From positions 1 through 35,597 of the forward strand of contig CASYFC010000014.1 of the NCBI GenBank assembly GCA_949482135.1: 35,597 nt of DNA. The letters run 5' to 3'. Both the position numbers and the translations under genes were made by a program. Every line of letters starts with the position of its first letter. Positions within the stretch are counted from its first letter, which is position 1. This DNA is from an uncultured Clostridia bacterium (lineage in GTDB: Bacteria > Bacillota > Clostridia > TANB77 > CAG-508). The notes below the pieces were generated by a model. The model did no database searches, was not told the DNA's origin, and was given only the letters and a program-made list of their open reading frames with translations. Shown here piece by piece: positions 9,260-35,312 of this stretch.

Positions 9260-9994
9260 TTATAATTTACTATATTCCTCATCTGTTACAGGTTCGCACC
9301 ACTCATTTTTTGTATCTTCTCCTGGTACTTCAACTGCAATATGACTAAACCAGCTATCCTTAGTTGCTCCATGCCAATGTTTTACATTTGCTGGTATTGT
9401 TACAACAGTTCCAGGAACTAATTTTCGAGCTTCTTTTCCTTCTTCTTGATACCATCCTTCTCCTTCAACACAAATCAAAATTTGTCCTCCAGCTTTCATT
9501 GAATGATGTATATGCCAATTATTTCTACATCCTGGCTCAAATGTTACATTTGCTAAAAATACTGCTGATTCTCCTGGTGTATTTAATGGTTTTAAATAAG
9601 AATTACCAATAAAATATTGTGCAAAGGCAATATTTGGCTCTCCCATTCCAAACATTCCGCCATGTGTTCCTTCAGTATTATCATCTGCATACACTTCATT
9701 TACTAATGAAAATGCACTCCATGCTTTAGGCCATCCAGAATAAAATGCAAGTTGTGTTACAATTTCTACTGCTTCTTCTTTTGTTATACCATGTTTTTTA
9801 CCCATAATAAAATGAGATTTTAATTGTGGAAATAACCCTTGTGCCATTAAAGCAGATATTGTAATCATACTTCTATCTCTTAAAGATAATTTATCTTCAC
9901 GAGACCACACTTCTCCAAATAATACATCATCATTCAATTCTGCAAATTTAGGTGCTATTTCTCCTAAATTCTCTCTTCCTGCTGTTTGTTTCAT
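9260..9994 (-). CDS. Carboxymuconolactone decarboxylase-like domain fused to a cupin
   Basis: A 244-residue protein. Residues 1-105 resemble the CMD/AhpD helical fold (RDRSMITISALMAQGLFPQL, then MGKKHGITKEEAVEIVTQLA) but lack an obvious CxxC. Residues 125-235 form a cupin with metal ligands in NNWHIHHSMKAGGQIL and VKHWHGATKD. CMD-cupin fusions often accompany MerR regulators and aldo-keto reductases, as here, and are thought to act in carbonyl/quinone or reactive-metabolite stress. AAGGAGGATAAA precedes the ATG. Confidence 0.9.
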   Translation of the reverse strand: MKQTAGRENLGEIAPKFAELNDDVLFGEVWSREDKLSLRDRSMITISALMAQGLFPQLKSHFIMGKKHGITKEEAVEIVTQLAFYSGWPKAWSAFSLVNEVYADDNTEGTHGGMFGMGEPNIAFAQYFIGNSYLKPLNTPGESAVFLANVTFEPGCRNNWHIHHSMKAGGQILICVEGEGWYQEEGKEARKLVPGTVVTIPANVKHWHGATKDSWFSHIAVEVPGEDTKNEWCEPVTDEEYSKL

Positions 9995-10032
9995 TATTTT
10001 ATCCTCCTTAAAATTTTTAAATATTTTTTCTG

Positions 10033-10416
10033 CTAAATTGTTTCTGTAAAATCTTTCTTTTTTCCAGAAACAATATCATTATATAGTTCAATTTTATAAT
10101 CCAATCTTTCTAATGAAACAGTAATATTTTTTTGTTTTTCTAATAACTTTTCTCTTTGTTCTTCCAATATTTCTTTTCTTCTTTTAGCTGTACTTTTTCC
10201 TTTTTCAAATAATTTCATATATTCTAATAAAGCTTCAATTTCAACTCCTGCATCTCTCATACATTTTACAAATTCAATTCTTCTACATGAATTTTCATCG
10301 TAATTTCTTATACCACTCTTGTTTCTTGGAACATTTGAAAGCATACCGATTTTTTCATAGTATCTTAAAGTATCTTGTGTTAAATTATATTTTTTACTTA
10401 CTTCTGAAATAGTCAT
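10033..10416 (-). CDS. MerR-family transcriptional regulator
   Basis: A 127-residue protein. The N-terminal winged helix reads MTISEVSKKYNLTQDTLRYY EKIGM, followed by the second helix-turn-helix (NYDENSCRRIEFVKCMRDAG) and a long dimerisation helix (about 80-118). There is no cysteine-rich metal-binding tail. It belongs to the AdhR/NmlR-like group that regulates stress oxidoreductases. It heads the cluster with the CMD-cupin and aldo-keto reductase genes. Its promoter carries the matching operator (10498-10515), so autoregulation is likely. Confidence 0.93.
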   Translation of the reverse strand: MTISEVSKKYNLTQDTLRYYEKIGMLSNVPRNKSGIRNYDENSCRRIEFVKCMRDAGVEIEALLEYMKLFEKGKSTAKRRKEILEEQREKLLEKQKNITVSLERLDYKIELYNDIVSGKKKDFTETI

Positions 10417-10488
10417 GTTTCCCTCTCTTTCATCAATTTCAACTATTGTTTGATTTTTTGTTCTTATATTTCCATTACATTTTTTCTT

Positions 10489-10519
10489 ATAGTATCACTT
10501 AGAGCTAACTCTAAGTCAA
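10489..10519 (-). promoter_or_regulatory. MerR-type promoter with 19-bp spacer and palindromic operator
   Basis: On the minus strand the -35 is TTGACT (10514-10519) and the -10 TACTAT (10489-10494), separated by 19 bp. Within the spacer is CTTAGAGTTAGCTCTAAG (10498-10515), a 7-4-7 palindrome. An over-long spacer holding such a palindrome is the hallmark of promoters that MerR proteins activate by untwisting DNA. It lies about 70 bp upstream of the merR-family gene. Confidence 0.85.
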
Positions 10520-10537
10520 TAGTTTTTTATAAAAAAA

Positions 10538-10566
10538 TGAAATTTAATGAACGTCCCTGAATTTCA
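10538..10566 (+). repeat. REP-like 29-bp hairpin repeat, copy 3
   Basis: The copy matches TGAAAY-N9-GTCCCT-N2-ATTTCA. It lies between the MerR promoter and the terminator of the permease gene. Confidence 0.75.
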
Positions 10567-10580
10567 CCTACATTTCACAA

Positions 10581-10614
10581 AAAATGAGTCCAAATTTAAC
10601 TTTGAACTCATTTT
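10581..10614 (-). terminator. Terminator of the ABC permease gene
   Basis: AAAATGAGT (10581-10589) pairs with ACTCATTTT (10606-10614), with an inner CAAA/TTTG stem. On the minus strand it is followed by a run of T. It lies 35 bp past the permease stop, flanked by REP copies 3 and 4. Confidence 0.75.
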
Positions 10615-10622
10615 ACTTTAAC

Positions 10623-10651
10623 TGAAATCTTTCGTCTGTCCCTATATTTCA
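10623..10651 (+). repeat. REP-like 29-bp hairpin repeat, copy 4
   Basis: The copy matches TGAAAY-N9-GTCCCT-N2-ATTTCA. The TGA stop of the permease gene (10649-10651) is the first triplet of this repeat on the minus strand, as at copy 1. Confidence 0.75.
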
Positions 10652-13024
10652 GTTTTCTCTTAATCTATCTACTATTGATTCTTTATTAAATATTTTTATA
10701 CAGCATATTGCAATAATAGAAGGCACAAAAATTGAAATTACTAAATATAAAACCATTGCTAATATAGGTAAATTAAATTCCATATAATTCATTCCAAATT
10801 TTTCGAATATTTTTATTGCAATATAGGCAAAACTTGGTCCAATTATACTACTTGCTAAGCAATTTGGTATTGCAAACCATATATTCTCAGAAATAATCAT
10901 TTTATTTACTTGTTTTTTTGTCATTCCCATTGATTGTAATATAGCAATTTCTTTTCTACGTGTAACTGTATTTGTAATAACTGTATTTATTAAATTAATT
11001 ATGCTAAATATAATTACAAAAATTGAAATTCCTATAAGAGTATTTTTAAAAATACTTGCTGATTTTTCAGCCTCCTCATGCCACTCAGAATATGTAATAC
11101 ATGATATATCTTCATAATTTTTTATAATATTTTTAACTTTATTATCTATATCTTCATTATAAATATGATTTTTAGTACTAACTTCTAAATATCCTGTACT
11201 ATCAAGTCCTTCTGAAATTTGATCATATATATTTTGTGGTACTAATACCCAACCTATTGATCTTGCATATTTAGAGAATGCTGAATCTCCAACTCCACCA
11301 ATAGTCAGTTCTATTTGTTTATCTTCACCATTAAAGTAATGAATTGTTACTTTATCACCAGCTTTAGGAGTATAACCATATACTTCTTCAAAAACATCAC
11401 TATAACTAAAATATATTTCTCCATTTTCTGTTAGCTTTTTTATATCTCCAGTTCCAGTTTTTAAAGATTTATTCATTGCTTCTTGTAGGTTTTCATTCAT
11501 TGCCTCAATTTCTTCATTAATAATATCTTTTTTAGTATCTATTTTTAAAAGGTAAGTTTTTCTAGCATTTACATGGTCTACTTCTTCTAAACTTTCTAAA
11601 TCCTTTTTTATTTTTGTAAGATTATTACCTTTACTTATTAAATCATACAATCCATTTTTTCTATCATTTATAGATTCTCTAGAAAAATTCATATAATATT
11701 CACAATCTCTAAAATAGCCATTTCTTGCATATTTTTCAACATTTATTGAACCTGTAAAAGTTAATGCTCCGATAAATAATGATCCACCTATAATTAAAGA
11801 TATAAGTGTAATATTAGTCTTTTTTTTGCTTTTATAGAATTCAATTTTTCCTAAAGAACTTGGTGTTAAATTTCTACACAATTTATTTGAAGTATTAACC
11901 TTTTCATCATTTCCAGTATATCTTAAACCTTCTATTGGAGATACATTACTTGCTCTTTTGGCTGGTTTTGTTACAGATATAAAAACTGCTACTGTTCCTA
12001 AAACACTTGATACTATTGCTAATTTAAAAACATTTAAAATGTTCCATCCATTTGAACTTATAAAATATGAAATTATACTACCAATTATGATTCCTAAAGG
12101 TATTGCAATTTTACAGTACTCAAGTCCTTCTATTTTTATAAGTTTTTTTATTTGCTTTTTAGACATTCCAATAGCTCTTAATTGTGCATATTCTTTAACT
12201 TTAGAAGATACTGATAAATAAAATATACTATAAATTACAATTCCACCTATTATAAGAATTACAACACTTAACCCAATAAATGTTTGAAGCTCTGGCATAT
12301 TTATAGAAAATGTATCAACAAATTTATTATTTGGATTTATATTTTTTCTTTCAATTCCATTTGTTTTTCCAATTTCATAAAAGAAATCTTTAATATATGT
12401 TGAACTTGGTATTTTCATATCTGGAGATACTTTTATTAAAGCATCAAGTGTACTGTTTTTAAATAATGTTCCTGATTCTGAATATTCTTTTGAAAATAAT
12501 GCAGGGTAATATAGAGATTTTCCATAGTCAATAAACCCTGATATAATGAATTTTTCTCCTAATATTTCGATGCTTTCTCCTATATTTTCTTCTATTCCAA
12601 ATTCTTTTGCTACCAATATATCTATAACAATCTCATTTTGTTTAATTGGAAAATTTCCTTTTAAAAGTTTATATGTACTCATTTCTTGAACTTCATAATC
12701 ATAATATATAGGTTTAATTTTTATATTTCCAATTTCTTTTTCAAAACCACTTCTATATTCCATCACACAGCGTATATTTTGGTTAGATTTCAAACTGTTT
12801 ATCTGCTCTTTGCTAACATCATAATATGCACAATCTTGCATTCCTTTTACAATTTCACGTTCATAAGTTTTGTAATTCAATGATGCAAGCCCAATTACCA
12901 TAATAAAACAAATTGCTAAACTTATAGTTACTGTCATAAATATATTTTTTAATTTAGATTCTTTTAAAGAAGCTTTTGCAATATTATGAATTACTTGGTT
13001 ATTGTTATTTTTTAATAAATTCAT
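10649..13024 (-). CDS. ABC transporter permease with two FtsX domains
   Basis: A 791-residue protein. It has an N-terminal membrane helix (about 29-48), an extracytoplasmic MacB-like domain (about 50-240), and an FtsX helix block (about 248-352). A second helix lies at about 402-424, a second large external domain at about 430-645, and a second FtsX block at about 655-785. Conserved cytoplasmic loops AQLRAIGMSKKQIKKLIKIE and EIAILQSMGMTKKQVNKMII couple to the ATPase. The length and duplicated layout fit peptide-antibiotic or lipoprotein-type (MacB/LolCE/Bce-like) exporters. The ATPase gene lies 18 bp upstream and the kinase/regulator pair beyond it, so a role in sensing or resisting antimicrobial peptides is plausible but inferred. 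Confidence 0.9.
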   Translation of the reverse strand: MNLLKNNNNQVIHNIAKASLKESKLKNIFMTVTISLAICFIMVIGLASLNYKTYEREIVKGMQDCAYYDVSKEQINSLKSNQNIRCVMEYRSGFEKEIGNIKIKPIYYDYEVQEMSTYKLLKGNFPIKQNEIVIDILVAKEFGIEENIGESIEILGEKFIISGFIDYGKSLYYPALFSKEYSESGTLFKNSTLDALIKVSPDMKIPSSTYIKDFFYEIGKTNGIERKNINPNNKFVDTFSINMPELQTFIGLSVVILIIGGIVIYSIFYLSVSSKVKEYAQLRAIGMSKKQIKKLIKIEGLEYCKIAIPLGIIIGSIISYFISSNGWNILNVFKLAIVSSVLGTVAVFISVTKPAKRASNVSPIEGLRYTGNDEKVNTSNKLCRNLTPSSLGKIEFYKSKKKTNITLISLIIGGSLFIGALTFTGSINVEKYARNGYFRDCEYYMNFSRESINDRKNGLYDLISKGNNLTKIKKDLESLEEVDHVNARKTYLLKIDTKKDIINEEIEAMNENLQEAMNKSLKTGTGDIKKLTENGEIYFSYSDVFEEVYGYTPKAGDKVTIHYFNGEDKQIELTIGGVGDSAFSKYARSIGWVLVPQNIYDQISEGLDSTGYLEVSTKNHIYNEDIDNKVKNIIKNYEDISCITYSEWHEEAEKSASIFKNTLIGISIFVIIFSIINLINTVITNTVTRRKEIAILQSMGMTKKQVNKMIISENIWFAIPNCLASSIIGPSFAYIAIKIFEKFGMNYMEFNLPILAMVLYLVISIFVPSIIAICCIKIFNKESIVDRLREN

Positions 13025-27414: not shown

Positions 27415-27443
27415 TTGACTTTTTCAACTTATCGAGTTATAAT
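27415..27443 (+). promoter_or_regulatory. Promoter of the tRNA-Pro gene
   Basis: TTGACT (27415-27420), a 17-bp spacer, and TATAAT (27438-27443), ending 22 bp before the mature tRNA. Confidence 0.85.
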
Positions 27444-27465
27444 AATCGATGTCTGTAAAAGATAT

Positions 27466-27541
27466 CGAGGTGTAGCGCAGTTGGTAGCGCGCGTGGTTTG
27501 GGACCATGAGGTCGCAGGTTCGATCCCTGTCACCTCGACCA
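27466..27541 (+). tRNA. tRNA-Pro (anticodon UGG)
   Basis: The acceptor stem CGAGGTG (27466-27472) pairs with CACCTCG (27531-27537), followed by an A discriminator and an encoded CCA. The anticodon arm is CGTGG-TTTGGGA-CCATG with anticodon TGG. The T arm is GCAGG-TTCGATC-CCTGT. The folded length is 76 nt with CCA. The 3' end of this gene borders the mobile element and is a plausible integration target, but no second copy of it occurs in the window. Confidence 0.97.
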
Positions 27542-27544
27542 TAA

Positions 27545-27576
27545 AAATACTGAAAACAGCGGTTTTCAGTATTTTT
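27545..27576 (+). terminator. Terminator of the tRNA-Pro gene
   Basis: AAATACTGAAAAC (27545-27557) pairs with GTTTTCAGTATTT (27562-27574) over a 4-nt loop, followed by more T. Confidence 0.85.
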
Positions 27577-27602
27577 TGTTTTTATTCAAAATTATTTAGT
27601 AG

Positions 27603-27644
27603 TATCTCAAAATGCCTAGAAATAGGCATTTTATCATTTGAGAT
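27603..27644. other. Nested hairpin downstream of the tRNA
   Basis: AAAATGCCTA (27609-27618) and TAGGCATTTT (27623-27632) close a GAAA tetraloop, and an outer ATCTCAA/TTGAGAT pair (27604-27610 and 27638-27644) extends it. It may be a second terminator or part of the element end. No gene is seen from 27577 to 27838. Confidence 0.5.
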
Positions 27645-27682
27645 TATTTAAAGTTATTTAGACCAATACAGCGTTACAGAGT

Positions 27683-27796
27683 TTTTGTTAGATTTATTGT
27701 TAGACTTGTCAAAAAAACTGTCTAACAAAAACTAAATCTATGTAATCACTGAGTATAAAGGAGTACGTGGATTTTTATTAGAATTATTGTTAGACA
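27683..27796. repeat. Five TTGTTAGAC-like boxes, candidate integrase arm sites
   Basis: TTGTTAGAT (27685), TTGTTAGAC (27697), the inverted GTCTAACAA (27720), TTATTAGAA (27775) and TTGTTAGAC (27787) occur in 111 bp. The first two and last two form direct pairs, each with a 12-bp period, within two near-identical 24-bp blocks. Tyrosine integrases of this type bind such short direct repeats beside the attachment core, so this marks the likely left attachment region. Confidence 0.5.
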
Positions 27797-27838
27797 ATAG
27801 TATTTAAAATTATATGTAATTATTTAAGAACATAAAAA

Positions 27839-27859
27839 GGGAAGTATTTATTACTTCCC
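27839..27859 (-). terminator. Terminator of the mob gene cluster
   Basis: GGGAAGTA (27839-27846) pairs with TACTTCCC (27852-27859), followed on the minus strand by a T run. It lies 15 bp after the DUF6809-like gene. Confidence 0.75.
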
Positions 27860-27873
27860 AAATTATATTAACT

Positions 27874-28143
27874 TTATTCTCTCATTGATTCAATCATTAA
27901 TTTGTTTGACAAATTATAGCCATAAGCAAAAGCTTTTTTTCTTTCTAAATCAATTAAATCTGCCTCTTTAGATAAGTACTCATCAAATATTTGATAATCT
28001 TCTTTAGATATAGTGTTTTTAAGTAATTCATCAATTCCGTTAATTTCATTCCACAAAGTATCTATTTTGTCGTCATTTTCTATATCATCAACAATCATTT
28101 CTTGTAAATTATCGTACAAATCTTCTATTTTACTTTTATTCAT
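27874..28143 (-). CDS. Small DUF6809-like protein of the mobile element
   Basis: An 89-residue acidic, helical protein. It starts MNKSKIEDLYDNLQEMIVDD and has ISKEDYQIFDEYLSKEADLI and a C-terminal KKAFAYGYNLSNKLMIESM helix. The order IEDLY / EL...L / E...F / F.GY..G.+LM.E resembles the DUF6809 family found in clostridial integrative elements. No function is known. AAAGG precedes the ATG, and the gene lies 20 bp after the relaxase gene, so it is likely co-transcribed with it. Confidence 0.6.
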   Translation of the reverse strand: MNKSKIEDLYDNLQEMIVDDIENDDKIDTLWNEINGIDELLKNTISKEDYQIFDEYLSKEADLIDLERKKAFAYGYNLSNKLMIESMRE

Positions 28144-29649: not shown

Positions 29650-29850
29650 ATAAGTAAGCCTTCGTAGCTTTACTTATATTATAATTCTTATTATTCAGTC
29701 TAATTACTCGTTAGCATTTTCATGCTCTAACATACAGAGAAACAAAGTTTCTCTGTATGATTAAGGGAACAAACTTCCCTTAATAAACCCTTTTCAAGAT
29801 TATTTAAAATTATTTAAAAATCTTGATTTAGGAAACCTCTGTCGGTTTCC
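29650..29850. repeat. Run of six hairpins, several perfect, in a gene-free stretch
   Basis: Consecutive inverted repeats occupy the gap 29629-29909. They are ATAAGTAAGC/GCTTTACTTAT (29650-29677), GCAT/ATGC with flanks (29711-29730), CATACAGAGAAAC/GTTTCTCTGTATG (29731-29759), ATTAAGGGAA/TTCCCTTAAT (29760-29784), TCAAGATT/AATCTTGA (29794-29826) and GGAAACC/GGTTTCC (29831-29850). AAACCCTT repeats (29786 and 29852) flank the last two. The density exceeds what one terminator needs. A folded ssDNA origin, a transfer origin or a structured RNA are options. Confidence 0.6.
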
Positions 29851-29909
29851 CAAACCCTTCCACTATATTTATAGAATTGATTAAATACAATTTAAACAAT
29901 TTTATAAAT

Positions 29910-30179
29910 TTATCTTTCTTCATGCATTTCATAAAAATTCGTATTTTTTCCTTTGCATATTCCGTCTATAAATGCCTCGATTTCATTCCAAGTTTTAAAG
30001 CACCTTTTATCGTCAATAGCATACCAATCTTTACTAGTATTATTTTTATCAACAATAGCTATTGCTTTGTTATAGGTGTAATCACTTGATATTGTCAGTA
30101 ATAATAATTGCTTATCACTATCTGAAAGCATATATGTATTTAATCCATCTATTCTTTGTTTTATATCTGATTTATTCAT
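29910..30179 (-). CDS. Small unknown protein coupled to the integrase gene
   Basis: An 89-residue protein starting MNKSDIKQRIDGLNTYMLSD, with a strand-rich middle (LLLLTISSDYTYNKAIAIVD) and CFKTWNEIEAFIDGICKGK near the end. I do not recognise the family. Its ATG overlaps the integrase stop (ATGA, 30176-30179), so it is translated with the integrase and may be a recombination accessory, by context only. Confidence 0.65.
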   Translation of the reverse strand: MNKSDIKQRIDGLNTYMLSDSDKQLLLLTISSDYTYNKAIAIVDKNNTSKDWYAIDDKRCFKTWNEIEAFIDGICKGKNTNFYEMHEER

Positions 30180-31618
30180 GCTAATTGTCGCTCTCCTTTA
30201 TTTTTTCTATTAAAAAATTGTTCTAAAATATATTCTGTTTGTATTAGCGTTGCAGTTTTTTCATAATCCTCATCATAATCAAAGTCTGCATCTCTTTGAG
30301 ATAATTGTTTTAAAATTTTTACGTTTTCTTCATATTCAGGAAATGATATAACTCCAGTTCTTAATTGTTCATGTTCAATTAAATAGATTTCTTTTAAAAT
30401 TCTTTTTCTTCTATTAAAGTAATCTTCTGAAAAATAAATATCATCTTCAATTATATTTGGTATATTTTTTCTAATAATCTCATTATCTTTATAGTAATTA
30501 TTAACTTTTTCAAGTTCATCTTCTTTATATTTATTAAATACAGAAGTATAAATATTTAAAGTAACTGAAACATCTTTATGTCCCATTAACCTTTGAATTG
30601 CAACAGCTCTCATTCCAGCTTCAACACATCTAGTGCCATAAGTATGTCTTAAGCTATGTGTTGATATTCCTGTAATGTCTAATTCAGATAATCTCTTTTT
30701 AAGAATTCTGTTTACATTTCTATTATCTACATAACTACCTTTAGGACTAATAAATAACTGATGATCCTTTTGATTTTTTGAAATTTCCATTTGTTGTATT
30801 ATAGAATTTCTTATAAATTCTGGAATAGGCACTTCTCGTATGCCTGCATAAGTTTTTGTAGTGTTTCCCATTGTTACTTTTCCGTCTTTATCAACTGTTA
30901 ATGTTTTATTTACTCTAATTAAATTTTTTCTTAAATCTATATCACTACTTTTTAAAGCTAGAGCTTCTCCAACACGAAGTCCTGTATACATTTGAATTAG
31001 ATATACATTTTTATATGGTTCTTCCTCAATTTGTCTATCTAATAAATAATCTGTAAATGTTTTTTGTTCTTCAATAGTCATTGCTCGAACTTCTTTATCA
31101 GCTTTTGTGCTTTTGGGTTTAATTACATCTAGCATTGGATTTTTAGTAATATAACCTTTATTCATTGCTAAAGTATAACTTTGAGTAAATTGTTCCATTA
31201 ACTTTTTTATATAAGAATTACTATAATCTTTTAATGAATTTATATATGTTTGAATATCATTACTTGTGATATCTTCTATTTTTTTATTAGCTATATCGTT
31301 TTTTTCTATAATCTGTATTGTTTTCAATACTCTTGCATATTGATTTTCAGATATTGAATTCATATCTAATTTTCTTTGAACATTTGCCCTCATCAATTGA
31401 CTTAAAGGAATTCCATTATTTTTAATAAAAATTTCATTTCCTTTTTGACATTCTAAAGAACTTAAAAATTGCTTGCCTTCTTCTTCATTTTGTACAGTCT
31501 TTTGTTTTCGAACTTCTTTATGTGTTTCAGTATCAGTTATATAATAAGCAACAAACCATTTCTTTTTACTTTTATTAAAGAAAACGCTACCTGTTTTACT
31601 TCCTTTTGGTCTACCCAA
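30176..31618 (-). CDS. Tyrosine-type site-specific integrase
   Basis: A 480-residue protein that should integrate and excise the element. An N-terminal AP2-like arm-binding domain (GRPKGSKTGSVFFNKSKKKW, then VAYYITD) is followed by a SAM-like core-binding domain (about 70-165) and the catalytic domain with Arg215 (YTGLRVGEAL), His321/Arg324 (STHSLRHTYGTR), His347 (LMGHKDV) and nucleophile Tyr357 (NIYTSV). A C-terminal extension of about 110 residues after the catalytic Tyr is longer than usual. The start is TTG, 6 nt after AGGAG. The arm-binding domain fits the direct repeats at 27683-27796. Confidence 0.95.
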   Translation of the reverse strand: MGRPKGSKTGSVFFNKSKKKWFVAYYITDTETHKEVRKQKTVQNEEEGKQFLSSLECQKGNEIFIKNNGIPLSQLMRANVQRKLDMNSISENQYARVLKTIQIIEKNDIANKKIEDITSNDIQTYINSLKDYSNSYIKKLMEQFTQSYTLAMNKGYITKNPMLDVIKPKSTKADKEVRAMTIEEQKTFTDYLLDRQIEEEPYKNVYLIQMYTGLRVGEALALKSSDIDLRKNLIRVNKTLTVDKDGKVTMGNTTKTYAGIREVPIPEFIRNSIIQQMEISKNQKDHQLFISPKGSYVDNRNVNRILKKRLSELDITGISTHSLRHTYGTRCVEAGMRAVAIQRLMGHKDVSVTLNIYTSVFNKYKEDELEKVNNYYKDNEIIRKNIPNIIEDDIYFSEDYFNRRKRILKEIYLIEHEQLRTGVISFPEYEENVKILKQLSQRDADFDYDEDYEKTATLIQTEYILEQFFNRKNKGERQLA

Positions 31619-31627
31619 TAAAAACTC

Positions 31628-31927
31628 CTATGTTCTTTTTTGCATTTTCCAAATCATATAAGATAGAAGCATTATTTGATTACTTTTTCCAACATTGATT
31701 GAAGGGAAGTCATCTCGTTGAAATAACCTATATGCTATTGACCTACATATATGTAAATCTTGCATAACAACTTCTACACCAATCATTCTAAAAGGATTTT
31801 TTAGTTTTCTAATACTTTCAATTGCCATAAAATCTTGAGGAGTTAAAGGATTACGAACATTTATATTTATTTTTTTATCTTCTGTATTTTGAATTTCATC
31901 TATCATTTTATTATTTAATTCTTCCAT
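31628..31927 (-). CDS. Excisionase-like DNA-binding protein
   Basis: A 99-residue protein. The second half, VMQDLHICRSIAYRLFQRDD, then FPSINVGKSNQIMLLSYMIW, has the helix-turn-helix followed by the F-P-x2-x-V-G-K turn seen in Xis/MerR-like excisionases. The first 45 residues are acidic and probably unstructured. It lies 9 bp upstream of the integrase gene, the normal xis-int order, and has a strong GGGAGGAG site. It likely directs excision. Confidence 0.75.
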   Translation of the reverse strand: MEELNNKMIDEIQNTEDKKININVRNPLTPQDFMAIESIRKLKNPFRMIGVEVVMQDLHICRSIAYRLFQRDDFPSINVGKSNQIMLLSYMIWKMQKRT

Positions 31928-31945
31928 GATTTATCTCCTCCCACA

Positions 31946-32432
31946 CTAATTTTTAATGCTTTCTATAAACTTCAAAATTACTGTTTGAATAGATAAAATC
32001 ATTTTTAAAGTTTCATCATTCAAATTTTTATTATCTTCTTTAGATAACTTTAAAGGTATATTTATATCTTTTAAGAATTTGAATTTACTAGAAGGTAAAT
32101 CATTATAATTAAAACTTGACTTTTCTAAAAAAGTTACATATTCAACAGCTTGTGCTTTAGATATTGATTTAAAATCTTTATCTTCTTTGTAAACTATAAT
32201 AATGTTTCCTTTTATTGTTTCAGGTATATTTAAAAATTCTCTTGTAATCGATATGTTAGGTTTTAAATTATCTCTATTTTTCCTACAAACAATAACTATA
32301 TCTTTATATGGTATTTCTTCAATTTTACCGTCCTATTATTTCTTCAAATTCAGATATATCATTTTTTATCTTTTGAAGTGCTGGTGATTTTCCAACTTCT
32401 TTATAAACAACTATAATTTCATTAGTTTTCAT
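31946..32432 (-). pseudogene. DUF3846-like protein with a one-base insertion
   Basis: From ATG 32432 (overlapping the stop of the small gene upstream) the frame reads MKTNEIIVVYKEVGKSPALQ, then KIKNDISEFEEIIG, and then stops. The adjacent frame continues GKIEEIPYKDIVIVCRKNRD and runs to a stop at 31946. The pattern E-V-G-K-x-P, then I-x-N-x(4)-E, then G-G-K-I-E, matches DUF3846 proteins of clostridial mobile elements. The break is at ACCG on the plus strand (32327-32330), where removing one base rejoins the frames into about 161 residues. Its function in the element is unknown. Confidence 0.65.
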
Positions 32433-32607
32433 CAGTATCACCACTTTCACTATTTAGATTTATTAGATATATTTTGTATGCAAAATCATCTAAATATTGC
32501 TTATTTTTAGGGTCGTCCAAACTTATTACATCTTTAGTAAATAAATTATCAGACTTTTTTAATTTTTTCTTTTTATCATTTGTTGTTGGTTTTGATATTT
32601 TTCTCAT
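32422..32607 (-). CDS. Small basic/acidic protein at the head of the element operon
   Basis: A 61-residue protein starting MRKISKPTTNDKKKKLKKSD, with a basic N-terminus and an acidic, helical C-terminus (YLDDFAYKIYLINLNSESGD). The family is not recognised. TAGGAGATTT precedes the ATG. The next gene's ATG overlaps its end by 11 nt. It is the first gene of the minus-strand operon leading to xis and int, directly behind the palindromes at 32631-32658. Confidence 0.6.
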   Translation of the reverse strand: MRKISKPTTNDKKKKLKKSDNLFTKDVISLDDPKNKQYLDDFAYKIYLINLNSESGDTDEN

Positions 32608-32630
32608 TTTTAAATCTCCTAAAATATATT

Positions 32631-32748
32631 TAGGTTACCGGTAGCCTAGATAGGCTTAAGCTTGATTTAATGATACAACGATTTTAAAACTTAAAACGTA
32701 AATGATTAGATAAAGTTAGTTAAAAGCATAAATGATTAAAAATGATTA
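32631..32748. promoter_or_regulatory. Overlapping palindromes and three AAATGATTA repeats: operator region of the element
   Basis: TAGGTTACCGGTAGCCTA (32631-32648) is palindromic but for one base pair and shares its right arm with AGCCTAGATAGGCT (32643-32656). Farther out, AAATGATTA occurs at 32700, 32730 and 32740, spaced by whole helical turns (30 and 10 bp). The region lies between the element operon and the XRE repressor gene, so it probably holds the operon promoter and regulator sites. Confidence 0.5.
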
Positions 32749-32795
32749 AATTTTTGATTTACAAAAACCTTTGAATGTCTTGAAATATAAGAAAA

Positions 32796-32827
32796 AGCGA
32801 ACGCAAAATTTAATTTTTACGTTCGCT
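32796..32827 (-). terminator. Terminator of the element XRE gene
   Basis: AGCGAACG (32796-32803) pairs with CGTTCGCT (32820-32827) around an inner AAAAT/ATTTT stem, followed on the minus strand by TTTTTCTT. It lies 31 bp after the XRE gene. Confidence 0.8.
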
Positions 32828-32858
32828 AATAAAAACGACTTTTAAGATTTTAAAAAAT

Positions 32859-33560
32859 CTATTTTTTAAATATATCTAAATACAAAGCATAATTCTTTTT
32901 CAAATCTTGTAATTCGCTATCTGTTGGTTTTAATGCTTCAAACATTTCGTCAGTAAATTCTATATCTTTTTTGCTAAAATAACATTTTCTTATACTAGGC
33001 TCATATTGAGCATTAGTTCCAAAGTATGCACCTAACATTAGCTCATCTGTGCCATAGCATACTCTAATAACCATTTCGCATATATCTAATCTCATTTGAT
33101 TAGGTTTATAATTTTCGTAAGATAGAAATGCAACCATATCATCAGCTAACATATAACCAGTAGAATAAATTGATTTATCATGAGAATTTACAAAGTCTAC
33201 TTCAATTCTATCTGCTTTTTCTCTAATTTTTATAATCCATTTATCCTTATTAAACTTTTTGGTATTAGGATTATATGCGTTAAAATAAACATATAAAGTA
33301 TCTGTTCCAAAAGGATTTTTTACATTCTTTTTATTAGAAAAAGCATGATTTCTATTGAATAAATCTGATTCGTATATGCCTAACTCATCACAAATTATAT
33401 TTATTTCTTCTGCATTAGGTAATAACTCTCCACTTTCAAATCTACAAATTGTTGCTCTGCTCTTATTTATTAAATCTGCAAGATTTTGTTGACTTAATCC
33501 TTTTTCATTTCTATATTTTCTTATATTTTCTCCAAATATTTTTGCATCAAAATTTGACAT
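32859..33560 (-). CDS. XRE-family repressor of the element with an unknown C-terminal domain
   Basis: A 233-residue protein counted from ATG 33560, which follows TTGGAGG. Residues 5-65 are a helix-turn-helix (LSQQNLADLINKSRATICRF). Residues about 85-215 form a separate strand-rich domain (TDTLYVYFNAYNPNTKKFNK, then EVDFVNSHDKSIYSTGYMLA) with no motif I recognise and no membrane segment. Position and transcription away from the element operon suit a lifestyle repressor. It is divergent from the structured RNA at 33715, with promoters 41 bp apart, so it may also control that RNA. Confidence 0.85.
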   Translation of the reverse strand: MSNFDAKIFGENIRKYRNEKGLSQQNLADLINKSRATICRFESGELLPNAEEINIICDELGIYESDLFNRNHAFSNKKNVKNPFGTDTLYVYFNAYNPNTKKFNKDKWIIKIREKADRIEVDFVNSHDKSIYSTGYMLADDMVAFLSYENYKPNQMRLDICEMVIRVCYGTDELMLGAYFGTNAQYEPSIRKCYFSKKDIEFTDEMFEALKPTDSELQDLKKNYALYLDIFKK

Positions 33561-33610
33561 ATAAACCTCCAATATTTCCATACAAAATATATAATAAAAA
33601 CACTAATATT

Positions 33611-33639
33611 ATTATAACATTATTTGACATATTTTGCAA
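33611..33639 (-). promoter_or_regulatory. SigA-type promoter of the element XRE gene
   Basis: On the minus strand TTGCAA (33634-33639), a 17-bp spacer, and TATAAT (33611-33616). It is divergent from the RNA1 promoter. Confidence 0.75.
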
Positions 33640-33679
33640 TTTAAAAGAAACAGCTTTACCGCTTAACGACTGCGATACA

Positions 33680-33708
33680 TTGATTATTAACGTAAAATAT
33701 GCTATAAT
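33680..33708 (+). promoter_or_regulatory. Strong promoter of RNA1
   Basis: TTGATT (33680-33685), a 17-bp spacer ending in TGC, and TATAAT (33703-33708). The TG one base before the -10 makes it an extended -10 promoter. The expected transcript start is near 33715. Confidence 0.8.
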
Positions 33709-33714
33709 ATAAAT

Positions 33715-33980
33715 ATATTAACCTATTTATAGGTAGATTTTCAATTTCTTATGAATATCTGCCCAAGCAATGCTTGATTGTATACATTAGTAAAAGTCGA
33801 GCATTGAGGGCTCGATTATTTATAAGAATTCCGCCGAATTGGGATTCATAATGTATACAGTATAAATAGAGACTTCAGGAAAGGTAGGATCCCAACAATG
33901 AAATTCTCAAGAGAAATGTGCCCACGGAAGTGGCGGATGTTAATCCAAGTGGGGAAAACATTTTTCCCCATTCTTTATTT
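33715..33980 (+). ncRNA. RNA1: structured RNA of about 265 nt, family unknown
   Basis: A strong promoter and a terminator (TGGGGAAAA/TTTTCCCCA, 33950-33970, then TTCTTTATTT) bracket a dense set of helices. ACCTA/TAGGT (33721-33734) and CAAGC/GCTTG come first. An 11-bp stem TGTATACATTA/TAATGTATACA (33779-33789 and 33849-33859) encloses TCGAGC/GCTCGA and AATTC/GAATT hairpins. TTCTC/GAGAA, CCAC-GGAA-GTGG with a GNRA loop, and GGAT/ATCC follow. TTGGGAT (33839-33845) can pair with ATCCCAA (33889-33895), long range. It lacks tmRNA, RNase P, 6S or SRP signatures. A raiA-type or other large-RNA family assignment cannot be tested here. Confidence 0.65.
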
Positions 33981-34005
33981 ACAAATTATAAAAAGTTATA
34001 TATAA
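33898..34005 (+). CDS. Possible 35-residue ORF within RNA1 (doubtful)
   Basis: An ATG at 33898 follows AGGAAAGGTAGGA and opens 35 codons to a TAA at 34005, starting MKFSREMCPRKWRMLIQVGK and becoming hydrophobic (TFFPILYLQIIKSYI). In its favour, RNA2 is complementary to exactly this ribosome-binding region. Against it, the RNA1 terminator lies inside the frame, the frame ends within the RNA2 promoter, and two CGG codons and a GNRA hairpin suggest RNA structure rather than coding. Confidence 0.15.
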   Translation: MKFSREMCPRKWRMLIQVGKTFFPILYLQIIKSYI

Positions 34006-34006
34006 T
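33978..34006 (+). promoter_or_regulatory. Strong promoter of RNA2
   Basis: TTTACA (33978-33983), a 17-bp spacer, and TATAAT (34001-34006), starting right at the end of the RNA1 terminator. The expected start is near 34013. Confidence 0.8.
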
Positions 34007-34012
34007 AAATTG

Positions 34013-34119
34013 GTAATTATTCTAAATGCCTCAATCATTTAGATAATTATAAAGTTTTAAAAGCAATTTTAAAACGAGGAAAGGTACGAATTGTTGGGAT
34101 CCTGTACCTTTCTTTTTTT
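34013..34119 (+). ncRNA. RNA2: three-hairpin small RNA complementary to RNA1
   Basis: About 107 nt made of three stem-loops. They are TAATTAT-CTAAATG with CATTTAG-ATAATTA (34014-34049, one bulge), a perfect GTTTTAAAA/TTTTAAAAC closed by a GCAA tetraloop (34054-34075), and the terminator GAAAGGTAC/GTACCTTTC (34079-34087 and 34104-34112) followed by seven T. The 16-nt terminator loop contains ATTGTTGGGATCC. This, with the right stem, is complementary to RNA1 33879-33899 (13 pairs, 2-nt bulge, 8 pairs). It carries no ORF. The layout is that of a trans-acting antisense RNA. Confidence 0.7.
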
Positions 34120-34120
34120 G

Positions 34121-34247
34121 TTGCACAGAGTGCACTATTTTGTTAATTTCTTAAAATTTAGCCAATTTTCTAACATTTCAAAGTATTTTTAATGTAAAAA
34201 TCGCAAATTTGTTGCACTGTATGCACATTTTGTTGCATATAGTGCAA
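34121..34247. promoter_or_regulatory. Three TTGCA-N5-TGCA boxes upstream of the Spo0A-like gene
   Basis: TTGCACAGAGTGCAC (34121-34135), TTGCACTGTATGCAC (34212-34226) and TTGCATATAGTGCAA (34233-34247) share the form TTGCA-N5-TGCAM with dyad symmetry. The third lies 11 bp upstream of the -35 of the next gene, and the first begins right after the RNA2 T-tract. They look like operators of one regulator. Confidence 0.55.
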
Positions 34248-34258
34248 TTTTTTATTTT

Positions 34259-34319: not shown

Positions 34320-34679
34320 ATGAATGAAGTTAGTCAAAAATTAAGTCCAACACAAATTTTACAAATTACTAATACTTTACGAACTATTGGACTAAAAAGC
34401 TCTCATATAGGAACAAAATTGATAAATAAATCTATTCAATACATTTTAATAAACAATTTTGACTTCTTTACTCTTGAAGAAATTTACAGCTATTTACACA
34501 GTATCTATAACTTTAATGAAAGAACAATAAAAAGTAATATAAATAATGCTATTACAAATAGAGATATAAAAAAATCAAAAGATAATTTTCAAAAAGTGTT
34601 CAACTATGAATATGATTCGTATACTTTTGAGCCTAAATCATTTTTAGAAGAAGTAAGTCGAATTATATATATGTCATAA
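34320..34679 (+). CDS. Stand-alone Spo0A C-terminal-like DNA-binding protein
   Basis: A 119-residue protein. Residues 14-80 follow the Spo0A output-domain pattern: ITNTLRTIGLKSSHIGTKLI, then NKSIQYILINNFDFFTLEEI, YSYLHSIYNFNERTIKSNIN and NAI. These correspond to the lead helices, the connecting segment and the recognition helix, and the tail (YTFEPKSFLEEVSRIIYMS) matches Spo0A's last helix. The receiver domain is absent, and sequence identity is visibly low. Such orphan domains are probably DNA-binding regulators free of phosphorylation control. AGAAAGG lies 11 nt before the ATG. Three palindromic boxes upstream may be its own or a partner's sites. Confidence 0.65.
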   Translation: MNEVSQKLSPTQILQITNTLRTIGLKSSHIGTKLINKSIQYILINNFDFFTLEEIYSYLHSIYNFNERTIKSNINNAITNRDIKKSKDNFQKVFNYEYDSYTFEPKSFLEEVSRIIYMS

Positions 34680-34707
34680 AGTGGTATTTTTTAATTAAAG
34701 TTTATGT

Positions 34708-34738
34708 TATAATACTCTTAAACAAATAGTAATTTGTA
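34708..34738 (+). promoter_or_regulatory. TATAAT box and conserved leader palindrome of the YdeI-like gene
   Basis: TATAAT (34708-34713) is followed by the 21-nt block 34718-34738 containing ACAAATAGTAATTTGT. The block is identical to the leader of the truncated gene at 1-79. The block runs directly into AAGGAGG of the YdeI-like gene. Confidence 0.5.
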
Positions 34739-34751
34739 AGGAGGATATACA

Positions 34752-35312
34752 ATGAAAGATATAATCGAATTTGCTAATAGAGAAGAATTTAGAAATTGGT
34801 TATATGAAAATTGTTTATTAAAAGATGGTGTTTGGCTTTTATTTAGAAAATCTGGAGAGCCAAAAACAATAAAAGCAAATGAAGCACTTGAAGAAGCACT
34901 ATGCTTTGGATGGATTGATGGGCAAATGCAAAGTATTGATGATAAAACTTATAAAAAATATTTTTCTATGCGTAGAGATAACAGTAAATGGTCTGAAAAA
35001 AACAAAGCATTGACAAAAAGCCTTGAGGAACGAGGACTTATGACTGAATATGGTAGAAAGAAAATAGAAGAAGCAAAAAATAATGGGCAATGGAATGCTC
35101 CAAAATCTATGGAAATAACAGAAAAACATATTTTAGAGTTATCTACTATATTAAAAGAATATGAACTTGCTTATACAAATTTTCAGTCAATGTCTCCATC
35201 AGTAAAGAAAACTTATGCTAAAGCCTATTTTGATGCCAAGACTGATGATGGAAGAAAAAAAAGAATTGCTTGGATGGTAAATAGACTTAATAAAAATCTT
35301 AAACCAATGTAG
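34752..35312 (+). CDS. YdeI/OmpD-associated (OmdA) family protein
   Basis: A 186-residue protein with the YdeI pattern: FANREEFRNWLYENCLLKDG, VWLLFRKSG, ANEALEEALCFGWIDGQMQS and KYFSMRRDNSKWSEKNKALT. The C-terminal OmdA part has LKEYELAYTNFQSMSPSVKK, then the terminal KKRIAWMVNRL helix typical of family members. The family is widespread; B. subtilis YdeI is tied to antimicrobial peptide resistance, but the biochemical role is unclear. It has a strong AAGGAGG site, and its leader is shared with the gene at 1-79. Confidence 0.9.
   Translation: MKDIIEFANREEFRNWLYENCLLKDGVWLLFRKSGEPKTIKANEALEEALCFGWIDGQMQSIDDKTYKKYFSMRRDNSKWSEKNKALTKSLEERGLMTEYGRKKIEEAKNNGQWNAPKSMEITEKHILELSTILKEYELAYTNFQSMSPSVKKTYAKAYFDAKTDDGRKKRIAWMVNRLNKNLKPM

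Follow-up and report, generated by a model that had tools for sequence, protein, structure and literature searches.

What use would a mobile element have for two short RNAs that are transcribed in tandem from one strand and are complementary to each other? The question is raised by a 35,597-nt contig of an uncultured Clostridia bacterium (CASYFC010000014.1; hereafter the window), in which RNA1 and RNA2, the two halves of one module, lie beside the gene for a Cro/CI-type repressor. Comparison among 43 copies of the module, from Clostridia assemblies, points to a two-part answer that is very probably right as a whole: control by RNA pairing, and a peptide made by a +1 shift. RNA1 would be the messenger for a very short, mostly Gly/Pro-rich peptide. 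RNA2, made from its own promoter just downstream, would carry in its terminator loop the antisense of the Shine-Dalgarno sequence and AUG, keeping the messenger untranslated; in most clusters a segment of the RNA1 leader, some 50-80 nt upstream, would also mask this start site by pairing. In most copies, including the window, translation would then move into the +1 frame at an in-frame CGG codon (33925-33927). The module appears to occupy the control region of integrative elements, between the divergent repressor gene and a gene for a Spo0A-C-like protein.

An earlier, sequence-only reading of the window had proposed an RNA/antisense-RNA pair joined by 13 contiguous base pairs, a 2-nt bulge, and 8 further pairs. 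This duplex is confirmed, and proves slightly longer than claimed: the longest uninterrupted match, of 14 nt, joins 33886-33899 to 34090-34103, and the full predicted duplex, at -34.2 kcal/mol and with 2 nt of RNA2 bulged out, takes up 33877-33899 of RNA1. When both RNAs were shuffled 1000 times with dinucleotides preserved, no match reached 14 nt, and 13 nt was reached once. The pair itself stands; what that reading missed is that the paired segment is the Shine-Dalgarno region and AUG (33898-33900) of a short open reading frame (ORF), so that RNA1 can be seen as a messenger, and that this ORF needs a +1 shift at the CGG. RNA2 presumably silences RNA1 translation.

Relatives of the 119-aa Spo0A-C-like protein encoded downstream occur in 30 of 96 genomes (its own genome and close copies counted), and upstream of many of them lie modules of the same layout and very different sequence. 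A covariance model for the window's own group (R1) finds close copies only, in 3/385 genomes. A second model (R2), of the RNA1 leader and built from 15 diverse modules, matches 12/96 genomes; 27/385 in the order, all from one family and from 6/48 genera; and 2/391 in the class, both from the same family. No leader was found in any other family among these 391 genomes. The R1 and R2 counts include the window's own genome, the genome sets overlap, and stricter filters were applied above 40 genomes. A protein search with the repressor added metagenome-assembled genomes (named Clostridia bacterium, uncultured Clostridium sp., and uncultured Tenericutes bacterium), two of whose records are titled as from water-deer rectum; four of the 43 copies (L179, L181, L186, and L187) come from this search and not from family-placed genomes. 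An assembly error was rejected as the source of the pattern, because the same pattern occurs in dozens of contigs.

The 43 copies encode 31 distinct peptides and lie mostly between repressor and Spo0A-C-like genes. Dropped before counting were L013, whose RNA1 has lost its 5' half beside an IS3-type element (its ORF is window-like); L157, whose RNA1 stops short of the ORF; repeated views of a place already counted (L071-L074, L134-L146, and L148-L151); and same-contig or identical copies (L173-L178, L180, and L182-L185). L162, identical to L161, was kept. L156, in which no RNA2 was seen, and L164, at a contig end, were left out of the RNA1:RNA2 pairing test, and L044 out of the test of pairing between leader and start site. 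Inspection by eye found no AUG-linked antisense loop in other loci hit through the Spo0A-C-like protein: L046, L048, L052, L054, L056, L057, L059-L063, L067, L069, and L076-L083. No relatives of the module DNA were found in phages and plasmids. For the repressor protein none were found in phages, and its plasmid matches, in nine records, are to the helix-turn-helix (HTH) part only. Protein scans of viral contigs found no relatives, and two pattern hits in viral contigs (L029 and L030) looked unrelated on reading.

Pairing of RNA1 with RNA2 is maintained among these relatives while its sequence changes. RNA2 is present in 41 of the 43 copies (three hairpins set by hand); its terminator hairpin has a large loop complementary to the Shine-Dalgarno/AUG region of RNA1. 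The pairing sites fall into 19 clusters whose sequences vary widely. Cognate duplexes average -26.1 kcal/mol (standard deviation, sd, 6.9), against -11.8 (sd 4.1) for swapped partners, and 0/100,000 permutations did as well. Of the 19 sites, 13 pair most strongly with their own RNA2, and of the 19 RNA2s, 17 pair most strongly with their own site. A second module in the window's own genome (positions 1517-2008 of locus L064, from G000:C9) has a different antisense sequence, with no predicted cross-pairing: the cognate duplexes reach -34.2 and -28.4 kcal/mol, the crossed ones -6.3 and -11.9. Compensatory changes in relatives are thus present, both for this duplex and for the self-masking described below, and the relatives bear out the proposed pair of RNA and antisense RNA, encoded on one strand next to an integrative-element repressor. 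Since leader segment, start site, and antisense loop change together, the module offers a natural, repeatedly rewired RNA-RNA pair, useful for studying the evolution of antisense specificity.

Self-masking follows the same logic. The leader segment that can pair with the start site, about 50-80 nt ahead of the AUG, changes in step with that site: cognate leader:site pairings average -19.7 kcal/mol (sd 2.6), swapped ones -12.0 (sd 3.2), with 0/100,000 permutations as good, and a site's own leader is its best partner in 10 of 19 cases. Of 10 copies folded whole, 7 have over 80% of the start site engaged in self-masking; the share is about 40% in L058, and almost none in the window and its close relative L011. 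The pairing with 33839-33845 that the sequence-only reading had foreseen is possible in the window (-13.4 kcal/mol), but its predicted share of the start site there, over the ensemble of folds, is 0.00.

The leader also contains three local helices. Helix 1 corresponds to a helix of the family in which 6 of 6 pairs have changed on both sides (42 distinct rows, 5 of them wrong-strand); for helices 1 and 2 together the figure is 10 of 11. This count is favoured by the alignment, which was fitted to that structure: with the five weak wrong-strand rows included, partners slid by -1 still leave 64.9% of cells paired, against 74.2% in register. By eye, helix 2 (..GCAATGC..) is complementary to helix 3 (..GCATTG..), also in relatives with changed letters. 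An alternative pairing of the two, or an attenuator with the T-rich sequence after helix 3, is possible.

Are the two RNAs made, and have they been seen before? Both same-strand consensus promoters with 17-bp spacers are present as originally described. A promoter scan on its own is not above chance (11 promoter-like sites, 14.5 expected from shuffles). Across the copies, the best site upstream of RNA1 has a 17-nt spacer in 42 of 43 (the exception is L044, whose leader is replaced), and that upstream of RNA2 in 39 of the 41 with RNA2 (exceptions L044 and L070); this conservation is supportive and not a test, because the scoring slightly favours a spacer of 17 and picks the best site per region. 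Structured RNAs are borne out by the folds, with z = -6.5 for RNA1 (33714-33982) and -5.6 for RNA2 (34012-34120), and 0/200 shuffles as stable in either case. The module had been assigned to no known family, and against Rfam 15 (raiA, ROOL, GOLLD, and 6S included) neither RNA reaches any family's gathering score, the only such match in the window being a tRNA elsewhere; at E up to 10 the module has sub-threshold matches only, and eight further module loci match no family. Searches of open-access papers brought up none that, judged by title and the opening of the abstract, concerns such a module, which is weak evidence of absence.

The messenger's coding sequence is split. In 26 of the 31 distinct peptides, 7-14 codons counted from the AUG lead up to an in-frame CGG (in L163 the CGG is codon 15). 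Skipping one base at the CGG opens a continuation to a stop, which reads Gly-(Ser/Cys/Thr/Trp)-Pro-Gly in 23 of the 26; the three without that motif are the window's group (MCP^GSGGC), L171 (PG replaced by AG), and L163 (CGG after CP, giving CP^GG). In the other five distinct peptides, CGG is absent and frame zero is open all the way to the stop: L050, L070, L147, and L152 are of the same sort as the shifted peptides, whereas L186 is barely alike. For example, the CGG-free L152 (MKNRIFLDGGSPGGFP...) compares with the shifted L065 (MKNIFLDG^GCPGGSP...).

The substitutions bear on the choice of frame. When 19 related pairs are compared over the 15 nt that follow the C, 38 changes hit third positions of the +1 frame, 8 hit first positions, and 2 hit second positions. 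Read in the +1 frame, 33 of the codon differences after the CGG are synonymous and 9 are not; read in frame zero, none is synonymous and 35 are not. The pattern is that of frame-0 coding before one fixed codon and +1-frame coding after it, strong after the CGG and weaker before.

Two other explanations of this stretch were rejected or set low. RNA1 might be purely structural, its ORF untranslated and the GGAC-GGNN-GUCC stretch a hairpin: the window has CCAC-GGAA-GUGG, with two pairs flipped relative to the GGAC/GUCC of others, and some copies could form the hairpin. In several copies, however, the hairpin is broken by GTCC to GCCC, which leaves the +1-frame amino acid unaltered; the changes fall on third positions of that frame, and copies without the C are in frame; this makes a purely structural role very improbable. 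Still less credit goes to a separate start, without frameshift, for the downstream part. An ATG does occur in its frame in 9 of the 26 distinct CGG copies, but another 9 of the 26 have no ATG, GTG, or TTG there; moreover, the start bound by the antisense RNA is the upstream AUG, and CGG-free copies join both parts in one frame. The +1 shift thus remains the preferred account, and the module, compact and conserved as it is, a candidate case of bacterial +1 frameshifting at a sense codon. Because such genes are tiny and split between frames, they are easily missed by annotation.

How might the shift occur? The codon in the P site before the CGG varies: GGA, GGT, GGG, CCA, ATA, or ATT. Slippage in the P site was rejected as a rule, being possible only at GGG and not at GGA, GGT, CCA, ATA, or ATT before C; ribosome hopping was also rejected, as CCA, ATA, and ATT cannot re-pair with GGA. 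The simplest mechanism would be an empty A site that lets tRNA-Gly read the overlapping GGA or GGU directly, which would fit all of these P-site codons. Two papers (PMC2267718; PMC5009743) describe a +1 shift at extremely rare codons, UGG or CGG before GGA, in glass-sponge mitochondria. The mitochondrial cases are respiratory genes, whereas the module belongs to a bacterial mobile element, is probably under RNA control, and uses GGU besides GGA. The Ty1 +1 frameshift (CUU-AGG-C; PMC5009743) offers a further likeness: a slow Arg codon, and an abundant tRNA-Gly for the overlapping +1 codon.

An empty A site presupposes a codon that is hard to read. CGG is the rarest sense codon in sampled ORFs of the window's genome (G000), at 18/64,633, and 8/62,639 in ORFs of at most 33% GC. 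No tRNA with a CCG anticodon was found in G000 or in a second genome, G033, both incomplete assemblies. The Arg anticodons found in the two are TCT, ACG, and CCT only, and by the usual pairing rules these do not read CGG. For G033, 23 of 30 loci were scanned as such, the other seven lie within the scanned stretches, and the matches left over were checked as well. In two conserved low-GC genes, CGG stands either at the very end or as codon three, before a start that is more likely. PMC8629427 reports no CGG-reading tRNA in another clade and in Mycoplasma capricolum, and PMC6207430 has an unassigned stop codon provoking frameshifting in recoded E. coli.

These observations leave room for a bolder interpretation, possible if rather doubtful, in which CGG acts as a code lock: a codon practically tRNA-less in this bacterial family and used by a family of integrative elements as a programmed +1 signal. 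The peptide would then be made only in hosts with the codon gap, under double RNA silencing. Bacteria would here, in nature, signal a frameshift with a sense codon that goes unread, a use of which searches of open-access papers brought up no case. The case bears on the fate of codons that lose their tRNA, and on the dependence of mobile elements on the host code.

Several observations weigh against the account given so far. For the RNA pairing, the 43 copies and 19 pairs are kin, so that counts are not numbers of independent events; for 6 of 19 sites some swapped RNA2 equals or outdoes the cognate one; exact runs are only 5-8 nt in L044, L167, L169, L170, L172, and L181; L156 has lost RNA2; and the window's self-masking is the weakest of the 19 clusters. 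For the split peptide, the window's own product is atypical (MKFSREMCP^GSGGC, with no PG after the shift), and the frame-0 signal before the CGG is the weaker one, with 24 changes at third, 18 at first, and 8 at second positions, and 18 synonymous codon differences to 21 not. For the codon, G033's smaller sample makes CGG (3/19,190) only the fourth rarest; the tRNA lists come from incomplete assemblies, with no Ala or Ile tRNA in either and no Ser tRNA in G000; and in a pyrophosphatase gene of G019, on a GC-rich contig, two CGGs align with Arg in one or other homologue. Given these Arg alignments and the incomplete tRNA lists, it is not claimed that CGG is wholly unassigned.

What would the peptide do? 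That two DNA-binding regulators regularly accompany it speaks for a regulatory effector of the anti-repressor kind, and our tentative first choice is an effector of the element's switch, for instance an inducer acting on a neighbouring regulator and silenced by RNA2. Known immunity switches of phages provide the closest pattern: in P22 sar/ant and P1 c4/ant, an antisense RNA controls an anti-repressor. Here, too, a predicted antisense RNA would cover the start of a control-region gene beside a Cro/CI-type repressor, which is matched in 34 of 38 module loci. By analogy, the peptide may be an anti-repressor of the neighbouring repressor, with RNA2 blocking its translation in the quiet state. The module lies opposite the repressor, and integrase and excisionase-like genes follow beyond; the repressor's carboxyl-terminal part would be the obvious candidate receptor. 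That part matches nothing clear, however, and L157 and L165 have free flank but no repressor match. Known anti-repressors are also much larger proteins than a product of 11-24 residues, and the phage switches differ from the module in further respects: its RNA2 lies downstream in tandem, its leader masks itself, and its gene needs a frameshift.

Ranked next, and unlikely, is an addiction toxin, the pair forming a type I toxin-antitoxin module in which the peptide is the toxin, RNA2 the antitoxin RNA, and the outcome the maintenance of the element in the population. In tisB/istR-1, zorO/orzO, and shoB/ohsC, a trans-acting antisense RNA pairs over about 20 nt near the start. The module shares with such systems a structured small-peptide messenger with a folded leader and a maskable start, a nearby gene for a short antisense RNA directed at the start site, and a mobile or prophage-like setting; antisense pairing with a small-peptide messenger is indicated by covariation across the 19 site clusters, and one genome has two copies that are not predicted to cross-pair. 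The product is the difficulty. Type I toxins are small hydrophobic peptides, usually membrane-spanning, a description that the 31 distinct peptides do not fit: their GRAVY (grand average of hydropathy) runs from -1.18 to 0.80, and their longest run without D, E, K, R, N, Q, H, or P is 9 residues. Being so short and not membrane-like, they disfavour a classical type I toxin; most distinct copies, moreover, need a +1 frameshift, and the module usually adjoins the repressor and Spo0A-C-like genes. To our knowledge, regular company with two transcription regulators is unusual for type I modules. Clostridial type I pairs are often in prophages, according to PMC6563280, where the C. difficile toxins have 34-59 aa and a transmembrane part.

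Table 1. Features of the module and its neighbours in the window (positions from the first nucleotide of the window).
Feature	Position	Strand	Basis or remark
Divergent Cro/CI-type repressor gene, 240 aa	32859..33581	-	HTH_3 E 3.9e-10; usual module neighbour
RNA1 promoter, TTGATT-17-TATAAT, TG before -10	33680..33708	+	Sequence scan
RNA1 (predicted): leader, short ORF, terminator	33714..33976	+	Fold; leader model finds relatives; ends approximate
Leader helix 1 (33732-33738 with 33757-33763)	33732..33763	+	Fold
Leader helix 2, CAAGC/GCTTG	33764..33776	+	Fold; 4/5 pairs with changes on both sides
Leader helix 3, TCGAGC/GCTCGA, then T-rich stretch	33797..33815	+	Fold; poorly aligned, 47.6% of cells paired
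Anti-start segment of leader, can pair with start site; weak in window	33838..33848	+	Leader:site pairing
Pairing site (RNA2 target): Shine-Dalgarno region and first two bases of AUG	33877..33899	+	Predicted duplex
Short ORF, frame-0 part, MKFSREMCP	33898..33924	+	AGGA 33886-33889, 8 nt, AUG 33898-33900
CGG codon, proposed +1 frameshift site	33925..33927	+	In-frame CGG in 26/31 distinct peptides
Short ORF, putative +1-frame part, GSGGC, then stop TAA	33926..33943	+	+1-frame codon conservation in relatives
RNA1 intrinsic terminator	33948..33972	+	Terminator scan
RNA2 promoter, TTTACA-17-TATAAT	33978..34006	+	Sequence scan
RNA2 (predicted antisense RNA): two AT-rich hairpins, then terminator hairpin	34012..34118	+	Fold; ends approximate
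RNA2 terminator hairpin; loop 34089-34102 and right arm antisense to RNA1 start site	34077..34114	+	
Spo0A-C-terminal-like DNA-binding protein, 119 aa	34320..34679	+	Spo0A_C E 8.2e-6; usual downstream neighbour

The genome to which the window belongs (G000, completeness 91.9%) is low in GC. A block from 27834 to about 34735, which holds the module, is shared at about 93% with G036 and G052; G016 shares it from 29669 onward, where the G016 contig begins. Proteins encoded on the block include a Mob_Pre relaxase, a tyrosine integrase (Phage_integrase), and the Cro/CI-type repressor; tyrosine integrase and relaxase on one shared block are as expected of an integrative mobilizable element. In a search for att sites at its putative ends, the longest direct repeat between 27440-27900 and 34650-34800 was 9 nt. 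Integrase and excisionase-like genes lie beyond the repressor in the window and in the longer-flank loci L071, L073, and L074.

Of 52 same-genus genomes, 4 have the RNA1-RNA2 stretch at 92-96% identity. One of these, G023, retains the 3' part only, an IS3-type element replacing what corresponds to 29725-33801 of the window, where integrase and repressor lie as well as the 5' half of RNA1. At this locus (L034), the IS3-type element occupies 9552-11970; the ORF, RNA2, and the Spo0A-C-like gene remain.

Synteny was counted by tblastn in the 38 module loci, four of which are second views of one place. The four loci without a repressor match are L168 (at a contig end), L044 (leader replaced), and L157 and L165, true misses at the sensitivity used. 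The carboxyl-terminal 160 or so residues of the repressor gave no known family and no clear match to a solved structure in the searches run; with a profile of 18 relatives, mainly the HTH part was matched in the PDB. The Spo0A-C-like gene was matched in 36 of the 38 loci (misses L156 and L163), and a 14-sequence profile of its product matched 1lq1 (E 3.3e-8) and 1fc3 (E 1.3e-7) in the PDB.

Two further observations concern the surroundings of this gene. On its 5' side (34121-34248), the window has three TGCAC...GTGCA-like palindromes; several relatives, inspected by eye, have palindromes at similar positions in other letters (TGCG..CGCA, TGTACG..CGTACA), a pattern that would fit a separate operator for each Spo0A-C-like protein. 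Directly 3' of the gene (34680-34760) lies a conserved promoter-like stretch, TATAATACTCTTAAACAAATAGTAATTTG. Across the compared genomes different genes follow this stretch, in the manner of a cargo slot; in the window it is a YdeI/OmdA-like gene.
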